Shown one piece after another: positions 1,907 through 26,222 of a stretch of DNA of 26,222 nt. The position numbers and the translations under genes are program-made. Every line of letters starts with the position of its first letter. Within the stretch, counting starts at the first letter, position 1. Source of the stretch: Deltaproteobacteria bacterium (lineage in GTDB: Bacteria; Bdellovibrionota; JACOXK01); the NCBI GenBank assembly GCA_016186995.1, contig JACPKQ010000013.1, positions 1-26,222 on the forward strand. Direction: 5' to 3'. The notes under the pieces are model-generated. The model saw nothing but the letters and a program-made list of their open reading frames with translations, was not told the origin of the DNA and ran no database searches.

Positions 1907-2060
1907 AAAAGATAGGGGTAGTACTTCCCTCGGGTACGGCGTCACTTTTTTCCTGCGAAAAAGTGCGCCTCGCGTCTCAGGTAATCTGCCGCATATACTA
2001 TGCGGACCAAGCCAGATTACCTTCCGACACGACCCTCTGTAAGCACTATCCCTATCTTTT
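1907..2060 (+). repeat. Hairpin repeat family A, copy 1
   Basis: A non-coding element of 154 bp bounded by 20-bp inverted arms (1907-1926 and 2041-2060, 2 mismatches). Inside is a nested hairpin: AGGTAATCTG (1979-1988) pairs with CAGATTACCT (2013-2022), enclosing CCGCATA-TAC-TATGCGG (1989-2005). A second copy in the opposite orientation lies at 9466-9619. Together with the C-family copy next door it is bounded by inverted GGTTCTT motifs (1889 and 2257). No coding sequence is evident, although short open frames cross it. Confidence 0.8.
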
Positions 2061-2085: not shown

Positions 2086-2262
2086 TGTGAAAAAATGGTT
2101 GCTATCTGAAGCGGAAATAAAGCGCAGCCCATCTTTGCAAATATTCAGAACTCTCTCATCCCGGACAGTGCTTTAGCACTTACGGGATTAATGAAGAATC
2201 CGGTATGACGAGTGTAGCGAGCCATGAAGCGAAAGATAGCAACCATTTTAAGAACCAAGGTT
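2086..2262 (-). repeat. Composite hairpin element family C, copy 1
   Basis: On the minus strand the order is: GGTTCTT flank, arm, TTCATGGCTCGCT core, hairpin ATCCCG...CGGGAT, GGCTGCGCTTTA core, complementary arm, then TTCACATAG flank. The arms (2092-2107 and 2234-2249) are perfect 16-bp inverted repeats of AAAATGGTTGCTATCT. The flanks and core match the copies at 25708-25882 and 25961-26137, but the arm sequence is unique to this copy. Confidence 0.85.
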
Positions 2263-9324: not shown

Positions 9325-9447
9325 AACACGCTATCAAAATTCCCTGCGAGAATTTTGCGCTCTCTCTCGACCTCGCTCTTTTTTGCTGTGCAAAAAAGCC
9401 ATGCCCGCTCCAGTCTGCGAGAAGGTTTTTTTGAAACAGAGCCCCAC
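9305..9447 (-). repeat. Hairpin repeat family B, copy 2
   Basis: A conserved B core on the minus strand (AGCGGGCATGG, a TTTTTTGC-ACA-GCAAAAAA hairpin, GAGCGAGG, then TTCTCGCAGGGAA) is enclosed by imperfect inverted arms. The arms are 9305-9319 (GTGGGACTCTATTTC) and 9433-9447, with two mismatches that are G·U on the minus strand. The core matches 14505-14591 and 26193-26222, while the arm sequence is unlike those of the other copies. It lies directly next to family A copy 2. Confidence 0.8.
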
Positions 9448-9465: not shown

Positions 9466-9619
9466 CAGAGATAGGGAGAGTGCTTACAGAGGGTCGTGTC
9501 GGAAGGTAATCTGGCTTGGTCTGCATAGCATATGCAGCAGATTGCCTGAGACGCGAGCCGCACTTTTTCGCAGGAAAAAAGTGATGGCGTACCCGAAGGA
9601 AGTACTCTCCCTATCTCTG
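9466..9619 (-). repeat. Hairpin repeat family A, copy 2
   Basis: A reverse-oriented homologue of 1907-2060, also 154 bp. The outer arms (9466-9485 and 9600-9619) are 20 bp with one mismatch. The nested hairpin has CTGCATA/TATGCAG (9521-9537) where copy 1 has CCGCATA/TATGCGG, a paired change that keeps the stem. Open frames across it are by-products of the repeat. Confidence 0.8.
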
Positions 9620-12712: not shown

Positions 12713-12821
12713 TGTCATTGCGAGCGCAGCGAAGCAATCTCCTAGAATTGCTTTAGCAATTCTAGGACAACACTTGCGTGTTGAGATCGCCACGGGTTCT
12801 TTAAGAACCCTCGCGATGACA
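12713..12821. repeat. Cloverleaf-like hairpin repeat (CATTGCGAG type)
   Basis: Outer arms TGTCATTGCGAG (12713-12724) and CTCGCGATGACA (12810-12821) enclose three perfect hairpins: CTAGAATTGC-TTTA-GCAATTCTAG, CAACAC-TTGC-GTGTTG and GGGTTC-TTTAA-GAACCC. The start CATTGCGAGCGCAGCGAAGC recurs at 14337-14356 with a different inner hairpin. The rest of 12639-13019 holds repeat fragments (CCTCCCTACTCTCTCATGGA near 12690, TTCACATAGACTCGAATTCT near 12832) and no supported gene. Confidence 0.75.
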
Positions 12822-14268: not shown

Positions 14269-14336
14269 TAGTTTCCTGACTTCTCTTCGTTGTTACTCCT
14301 GCACTTCTTTTTGTCATCCCGAGCGTCCCCTCTGTC

Positions 14337-14373
14337 ATTGCGAGCGCAGCGAAGCAATCCCATCACCAAAGGT
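14337..14373. repeat. CATTGCGAG repeat, shorter copy
   Basis: This shares CATTGCGAGCGCAGCGAAGC with 12715-12734 but carries a different inner palindrome, CATCACC-AAA-GGTGATG. It is followed by repeat-like sequence and no gene. The whole interval 14269-14997 contains repeats, one family B element, a dRS3-like hairpin and a selC fragment, with no supported coding sequence. Confidence 0.6.
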
Positions 14374-14475
14374 GATGAGATAGCCCCCTCGGCTGCGCTT
14401 GACTTGAGCACCTTAGCCTAACCATTTTTTCACATGACTACGAATAAATGGATTAAAGCTTAATGAATATCTGAA

Positions 14476-14783: not shown

Positions 14784-14810
14784 TGGTGGAAGTGTAAGGG
14801 AATCGAACCC
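14784..14810 (-). repeat. Duplicate of the selC 3' end (attachment-site-like)
   Basis: These 27 bp are identical to 14994-15020, which cover the CCA tail, the 3' half of the acceptor stem and most of the T-arm of tRNA-Sec. The direct repeats lie 210 bp apart. The DNA between them holds short direct repeats (GAAGCTAAGAGCTC at 14814 and GAAGCTTAGAGCTC at 14858) and small hairpins but no gene. Duplicated tRNA 3' ends are the usual scar of site-specific integration. Confidence 0.75.
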
Positions 14811-14997
14811 ACGGAAGCTAAGAGCTCTTGCTAAGATTGCGAGAGAACGCAGCAATCGAAGCTTAGAGCTCAAGCTGGAGACCTTCTCTTTGTGAGAACG
14901 AGCCTGAAAGGCGAAGATCGAACCTAGAGAAGGCGGTATGGTGAATAACTTATGGAGATGAGGGGGTTCTGGGTGAATCTGGAACGAGGAAGTTGGT

Positions 14998-15095
14998 GGA
15001 AGTGTAAGGGAATCGAACCCTCCATAGTTTTTCTTTAAGAAAAACTATCACTGGATTTGAAGTCCAGGAAGCGCACCAGCCACTTATCCACTTCC
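14998..15095 (-). tRNA. selC: tRNA-Sec (UCA anticodon)
   Basis: A 98-nt selenocysteine tRNA on the minus strand. The anticodon arm CTGGA-CTTCAAA-TCCAG carries UCA and matches E. coli selC as I recall it. The acceptor begins GGAAGTG and pairs with CACTTCC; the eighth pair, expected in bacterial tRNA-Sec, is a G-A mismatch. The T-arm is GAGGG-TTCGATT-CCCTT. The variable arm is long, an 11-bp stem (ATAGTTTTTCT with its complement and a 3-nt loop). An A and an encoded CCA follow. It reads UGA as selenocysteine, so SelA, SelB and selenoproteins should be encoded elsewhere in the genome; none was recognised in this window. Confidence 0.93.
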
Positions 15096-25573: not shown

Positions 25574-25588
25574 AGTAGCAACACCCCC

Positions 25589-25620
25589 TGTCATCCCGGG
25601 CGAAGACCCGGGATCCAGTA
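25589..25620. repeat. Dispersed ATCCCGGG hairpin repeat
   Basis: The exact reverse complement of 2276-2307 over 32 bp, with stem CCCGGG around CGAAGA. It lies 15 bp after the lon stop codon. Confidence 0.8.
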
Positions 25621-25658
25621 TTCAGAATACAATCTTAGTTCTGAGTAGGGAAATCCTC

Positions 25659-25707: not shown

Positions 25708-25882
25708 AGTTCTTGAAATGATCTCAAGTCTTCCGTTTCATGGCTCGCTGTAGTTTGTTATATCAATTTTTTGTCATCCCGGAAGCACGCAAGCGCTCTC
25801 CGGGATCCAGTCTTCTGAGTCTTTACGAACCGTGTGCTGCGCTTTACTTACACTTCAGACTTAAGACCATTTCTTCACATAG
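25708..25882 (+). repeat. Composite hairpin element family C, copy 3
   Basis: The order is: AGTTCTT flank, arm GAAATGATCTCAAGTCT (25715-25731), TTCATGGCTCGCTGTAG core (25737-25753), hairpin ATCCCGG...CCGGGAT (25775-25806), GAACCGTGTGCTGCGCTTTA, complementary arm (25857-25873, two mismatches), then TTCACATAG flank. Flanks and core match copies 1 and 2; the arms are unrelated to theirs. Confidence 0.85.
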
Positions 25883-25960
25883 TTGTGAATGATTCTTCCG
25901 CAAGGACAGAAATTTCGAGTCCATGAGAGAGTAGGGAGGGTATTTTGTTTCCGATACTTA

Positions 25961-26137
25961 GGTTCTTGCTAACCTTCCTAAATTTTGCTTCATGGCTCGC
26001 TGTAGTTATCCAACATGAACTCTTCTTGATCCCGTAAGTGCTAAAGCACTGTCCGGGATACACAGTTTTGAATACTTACGAACCGTAGGCTGCGCTTTAC
26101 TTCCGCAAAATTTGAAAGGTTAGCTTTACATAAACTC
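25961..26137 (+). repeat. Composite hairpin element family C, copy 2
   Basis: The GGTTCTT flank (25961-25967) is followed by arm 25968-25988 (GCTAACCTT...AAATTTTGC), CATGGCTCGCTGTAG, a hairpin ATCCCGTAAGTGC...GTCCGGGAT identical to that of copy 1, GGCTGCGCTTTACTTCC, the complementary arm 26105-26124, and the flank TTTACATAAACTC. The left arm is 21 nt in both this copy and copy 1, yet the two sequences are unrelated. Confidence 0.85.
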
Positions 26138-26192
26138 AAATTCTGTCACATAAAGTTACCTAGTATGTTTTGAAGGCCGTCTCGGAGGCCTA

Positions 26193-26222
26193 AGCGGGCA
26201 TGGATTTTTTACGAAGTAAAAA
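26193..26222 (+). repeat. Hairpin repeat family B, copy 3, cut by the window edge
   Basis: AGCGGGCATGG followed by TTTTTAC-GAA-GTAAAAA (26206-26222). Copy 1 has TTTTGC-GAA-GCAAAA at the same place, so the closing base pair has changed on both sides of the stem. Confidence 0.7.

Follow-up and report, generated by a model that had tools for sequence, protein, structure and literature searches.

Families of REP/REPIN and MITE-type repeats are defined by the sequence of the palindrome itself. The elements described here resemble them in being small palindromic repeats present in many copies (PMC3116915, PMC3733652), but here a family is defined by its core only and, in the genome designated G000, also by its outer ends. 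The stems of integron attC sites likewise vary in sequence, although attC has conserved outer boxes, whereas in our elements the conserved boxes are located inward of the arms. According to the available part of PMC6649704, which cites Ogata et al. (2000, 2002), Rickettsia palindromic elements (RPE) are short palindromic repeats, dispersed and in-frame within protein-coding genes, whose repeat identity declines with time. Our elements are also dispersed short palindromes that lie in-frame within the protein-coding genes of a bacterial genome; by description they are set apart from RPE by stems that are copy-specific and matched at orthologous sites, and by a core that inverts. The same part of PMC6649704 describes perfect inverted repeats actively maintained in coding genes of Nematomorpha mitochondria, for which template switching is proposed; those repeats are mitochondrial, and that part of the paper makes no mention of a dispersed core shared between genes. 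Hairpin stems can arise and be repaired through template switching (PMC8604942, PMC8794818), which can also maintain them (PMC8794818). Such template-switch mutation, or quasipalindrome correction, is similar to what we observe in its arm homogenization and spacer inversion (PMC8604942, PMC8794818), but the known cases are scattered events at short repeats, whereas here the events are apparently recurrent, in elements that are dispersed, keep a conserved core, and have longer spacers. A limited search of the open-access literature returned no element of this design, in agreement with the initial annotation of this DNA, which knew of none. In kind, these are a variant of palindromic repeats already described, probably shaped by an established mutational mechanism; their scale is unusual, and the orthologous test set is clean.

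The window, a stretch of 26,222 nucleotides that is contig 30 of its own genome, G000 (1.68 Mb, 93% complete), contains three full copies, each roughly 177 nt, of an element with the core that we call core 1. All three have the order of parts reported from the window before: an outer left end, an arm, the box CATGGCTCGCT, a spacer with a central hairpin, the box GCTGCGCTTTA, the second arm, and an outer right end. Copy 1 (positions 2086–2262, minus strand) has perfect 16-bp arms at 2092–2107 and 2234–2249 (16/16 paired), copy 2 (25708–25882, plus strand) pairs 25715–25731 with 25857–25873 at 15/17 positions, the exceptions being two A.C mismatches, and copy 3 (25961–26137, plus strand) pairs 25968–25988 with 26105–26124 with one mismatch and one bulge, so the complementarity claimed within each copy holds. 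At 16–21 nt, the measured arms are somewhat shorter than the 21–22 nt given earlier for the left arm, and the claim that arms are unrelated between copies stands for copy 3 only. The arms of copy 3 ('type C') are unrelated to the others and recur in other G000 copies, whereas those of copies 1 and 2 (AAAATGGTTGCTATCT and GAAATGATCTCAAGTCT) have AAATG...TCT in common and are connected by intermediates among the G000 copies. In an alignment of 38 copies the two boxes, which in copy 3 occupy 25991–26001 and 26089–26099 (both plus strand), are nearly invariant, and there are several versions of the central hairpin; one strand of the element carries GCGGAAGTAAAGCGCAG. A truncated right end lies at 14391–14444 (plus strand; inverted repeat I3). 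The observation made from the window is thus partly confirmed, and it is more general than the window alone could show.

Other repeats surround these copies. A family E palindrome, with a different core and co-varying arms, adjoins copy 1 (1910–2057, minus strand), and a second copy at 9469–9616 (plus strand) has GGGAGAG in both arms where most copies have GGGATAG; changes in the arms of this family are mirrored. Core 4, relatives of which supply the orthologous comparison below, is represented by a copy with approximate bounds at 9334–9440 (plus strand) and by a fragment cut by the contig end at 26177–26222 (minus strand; inverted repeat I6). Short palindromic repeats also occur near the elements, at 2274–2312 and 25584–25622 (GTCATCCCGG...CCGGGAT) and at 12713–12739 and 14333–14359 (GTCATTGCGAGCGCAGCGAAGCAATC), and the intergenic regions form a mosaic of different repeat families. 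Copy 1 is 98% identical to another core-1 copy of the genome (L050, G000:C27:44147-44323), with which it also has the neighboring family E element in common; the pair looks like a recent segmental duplication. Rfam places a tRNA-Sec gene at 14998–15095 (minus strand) that ARAGORN did not report; 27 nt from its end recur at a distance of 210 nt (14784–14810 and 14994–15020), as if there were a partial duplicate, and G000 also encodes a SelB-like protein (L225).

A covariance model built from the 38 core-1 copies and run on G000 gave about 57 convincing matches. Collecting the copies genome-wide and testing the pairing of their arms had been proposed in the initial annotation, and the pairing proved to be far above both controls. 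Arms paired with their own partners scored 27.9 on average, as against 17.6 with permuted arms (maximum 22.2 over 20,000 permutations), and 94.4% of pair cells were kept, as against 80.9% when shuffled and 33–51% when the partner was slid. In the core-1 alignment, double changes were present in 11/12 outer-stem pairs and the whole structure had 82 compensated cells (24.1 in shuffles); most of the covariation signal was lost once the partner was shifted one to three columns. Kinship among copies inflates such covariation counts, and the orthologous comparison therefore weighs more.

The commonest core-1 arm in G000 is AAAATGGTTACTATC, to which the variants GAAATGGTCTCAAGTC, GAAATGGTCTATGTC and GAAATGG(T)CAGTGTC are related; the type GCTAACCTTCCTAAATTTTGC, found in copy 3 of the window and in several other copies, is unrelated to this group. 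All three main arm types occur with both short and long spacers, which indicates that spacers and arms shuffle. A few copies (e.g., L044 and L010) have mismatched, apparently chimeric arms, and at L034 the place of the outer left end is taken by a right end copied in inverted orientation, giving a palindrome with 32-nt arms. The core-1 copies of G000 also have imperfect outer ends in common, and inspection of their flanks by eye revealed no clear target-site duplication. At six loci (L012, L014, L021, L026, L038, and L042) a solo left-end piece (TTAGGTTCTTGAAATGG...) lies as a direct repeat about 35 nt upstream of the full element, and at four others in G000 (L070:13808, L075:19882, L073, and L023:145) core-1 outer ends enclose a different core (CCCCTCCGCCCGGTGTGGATCCTCC) and different arms.

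The design is not peculiar to core 1. We surveyed G004 (307 kb covered), G002 (386 kb), and G000 (417 kb) for long inverted repeats. Most were such elements, and they included at least three further unrelated cores of the same design. Perfect hairpins of 18 bp or more without a core, by comparison, were rare, with 2 in the 307 kb of G004 and few in the 386 kb of G002. This result bears on an option raised from the window, that cores insert into already existing hairpins. Such insertion would account for arms differing between copies, but it calls for core-less hairpins of a size that is rare in these genomes, orthologous comEC genes occur without the insertion and lack most of its length, and concerted change at orthologous elements is left unexplained. 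We regard it as extremely improbable.

Searches with the model and with core patterns placed core 1 in two other genera of the class, with 5 copies in G002 and at least 14 copies with arms in G004. Among 368 genomes of the phylum, the exact core-1 pattern occurred in none outside G002 and G004, a pattern that misses G000 itself because its spacer is longer; in a public genome collection it returned unrelated matches only, mostly in Pseudomonas. The core-1 copies of G002 and G004 have nothing in common beyond the core and the innermost arm bases. The arms of G004 are different in each copy, mostly 19–36 bp long, and near perfect. Two G004 copies, L199 and L201, have identical cores (60/60 nt) and arms that agree at 7/20 positions, the level of shuffled sequence; for other pairs with 94–100% core identity, arm identity is 0.38–0.71 against 0.37–0.47 when shuffled, so distant relatedness is still traceable in some arms. 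In G002, four core-1 copies have a common purine-rich arm whose differences, including an indel, are mirrored on both sides.

Identical or near-identical cores beside unrelated arms, as in G004, are what would be expected if the arms were made at insertion, with a mobile core inserting and one flank being copied in inverse complement to the other side (e.g., by snap-back synthesis). Identical cores might also be maintained by gene conversion between copies without recent insertion, and core identity alone therefore cannot date an insertion. Moreover, inner arm ends are common to some copies, as if inherited.

The comparison that weighs most comes from core 4, whose pattern has 5 to 7 matches in each of G002, G005, G006, and G007, the majority being elements whose matched arms are unique. 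Four of the sites have orthologs in other species, giving comparisons across as many as three species, and three of these sites lie in-frame within conserved genes (gene names were assigned from translations). Over the four sites, the two arms of an element are 82–100% identical to each other, whereas arms compared between species are 46–79% identical. At site O1 (L312, L319, and L324) the arms agree at 23/23, 23/24, and 22/24 positions within elements and at 11–19/24 between species; at O2 (L311, L316, and L321), lying in-frame between an LpxB-like and an LpxK-like part of a single long frame, identity is 0.86–0.96 within and 0.59–0.73 between; and at O3, in purL (L301 and L304), it is 24/28 and 32/35 within (0.86 and 0.91) and 17/35 and 18/36 between (0.49–0.50). 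The weakest case is O4, in-frame in a pabB-like gene (L310 and L322), with 0.82 and 0.93 within and 0.75–0.79 between. Under independent arm drift at the flank rate, these patterns have probabilities of about 7e-5 (O1), 0.002 (O2), and 0.02 (O3), which are rough values because flank divergence was taken from BLAST; independent drift of the arms since the species split is unlikely.

Every one of the four orthologous sites includes at least one species whose core is inverted with respect to the surrounding sequence. Between inverted repeats, the documented outcomes of template switching are arm homogenization and spacer inversion (PMC8604942), and both are found here, the first at orthologous sites and the second in 4/4 groups. 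Core inversion between species would also be produced by a site-specific invertible element (inverton), with a recombinase acting on the arms. That reading leaves arm homogenization unexplained, and the copy-specific arms hold no common recombinase site; we consider it highly improbable.

Many copies lie inside unrelated coding genes, and the frames of purL, lpxB-lpxK, the pabB-like gene, selB, and comEC are open through the element. In every species, the downstream arm at the purL site consists of host coding sequence (IDESLSLEE in G005, for example). G007 and G002 have the full element, with the coding stretches CKSNESLSFEE and LRVDESSSLED as downstream arm and its inverse complement as upstream arm, which tracks each host's own codons. 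In G005 and G006 only half of the core is left; the upstream half is lost and RKIDESLSLEE or REIDKSLSLEE follows. The outermost part of the G007 upstream arm (inverse complement GTCACTAGA) resembles the coding stretch of G005 (TCACTAGAA) more closely than it resembles its own partner, as expected from earlier copying. At the place in the purL linker where relatives have the core-4 element, G003 (L242) has a different insertion, in which the direct repeat RHCNSSxRDxxSGxISDNF occurs twice.

Sites without the element, which had been proposed as a way to tell whether the arms belong to the element or to the target, gave a divided answer. The ComEC insertion adds 18–21 aa relative to relatives, less than the 31 aa that the core plus both arms would give, and in several genes one arm codes for the start of the host protein, including likely signal peptides; both observations favor arms made at insertion. 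At the empty site of L302/L310 (G005 compared with G002), however, both arms are extra by a by-eye reading (the automatic alignment was poor), so arms are not always host-derived. The SelB insertion is about 25 aa relative to G007, a length that is only rough, and at the PurF empty-site comparison the purL-purF junction differs between the genomes compared. With these points set against one another, we think it unlikely, if not negligibly so, that the arms are made at insertion. The same modest probability attaches to a fuller version, in which mobile cores of several unrelated kinds in one class would build the stem at insertion from the inverse complement of host sequence, later keep it matched, and flip the core. 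As for a mover, a Y1 (RAYT-type) transposase was considered; PF01797 has matches in G001, G002, G004, and G006 and none in G000 (93% complete), and on this absence it was rejected.

Strong covariation would also be expected if the arms drifted by point mutation with compensatory changes under selection for a stem in RNA or single-stranded DNA. Core-1 mismatches are in fact skewed to A.C on the plus strand, which is G.U on the other, with 13 versus 4 distinct cases in G000 and 12 versus 2 in G002/G004, and this suggests that a single-stranded form is under some selection or that mutation is biased by strand. The bias was rejected as a general sign of RNA, being confined to core 1 and without significance for core 4 (17 versus 12) or family E (3 versus 6). 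Against stem selection are the replacement of arms in blocks beside conserved cores, the mirrored indels, the persistence of half-elements in purL of G005 and G006, the many copies within unrelated coding genes, and the lack of any Rfam match to the element, for which the window and eight further loci were searched. Selection for the stem, another option raised in the initial annotation, fails on its own to explain identical cores with unrelated arms, and we judge it distinctly unlikely; the core-1 bias nevertheless leaves room for some stem selection.

Copying of one arm from the other, the remaining option raised there, is best supported, by orthologous copies with concerted arms and inverted cores, and the earlier interpretation is partly supported as a whole. 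We consider it probable that, in these dispersed palindromic elements, one arm keeps being overwritten as a copy of the other, and that this copying sometimes captures host codons. Several families of short elements, with cores of about 25–110 nt between inverted-repeat arms of about 16–36 bp, are dispersed in genomes of one bacterial class. During replication one arm would repeatedly template the other, by template switching or quasipalindrome correction, such that a change in one arm would be copied onto its partner; copying tracts could reach beyond the element into adjoining host sequence, and the process would at times invert the core. Events of this kind are reported to be suppressed by exonucleases I and VII. 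Such copying would leave arms copy-specific yet complementary and the core intact. If recurrent, it would account, with no need for selection on the stem, for arms peculiar to each copy, for indels mirrored between arms, for the capture of host codons, and for inversion of the core. The cores are conserved, the arms are copy-specific and matched, and at orthologous sites the arms change in concert and the core inverts; from these observations we infer template switching, rather than another arm-to-arm conversion, as the agent, the capture of host codons by copying tracts, and the way in which the cores spread. The length of the spacers counts against the mechanism, since the published spacer inversions, in yeast, involve spacers of a few bases (PMC8604942) and those here are about 45–110 nt.

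Compensated stems are usually taken as proof of RNA structure. Here, dozens of natural elements have co-varying stems for which mutation, in the form of arm-to-arm copying, is the likelier cause, a caution that covariation alone is insufficient grounds for inferring a functional RNA. Three species of one genus have orthologous copies, and the set would allow template switching in bacteria to be measured in its rate, direction, and tract length; in these elements arm-to-arm copying would also rewrite and invert segments of proteins.
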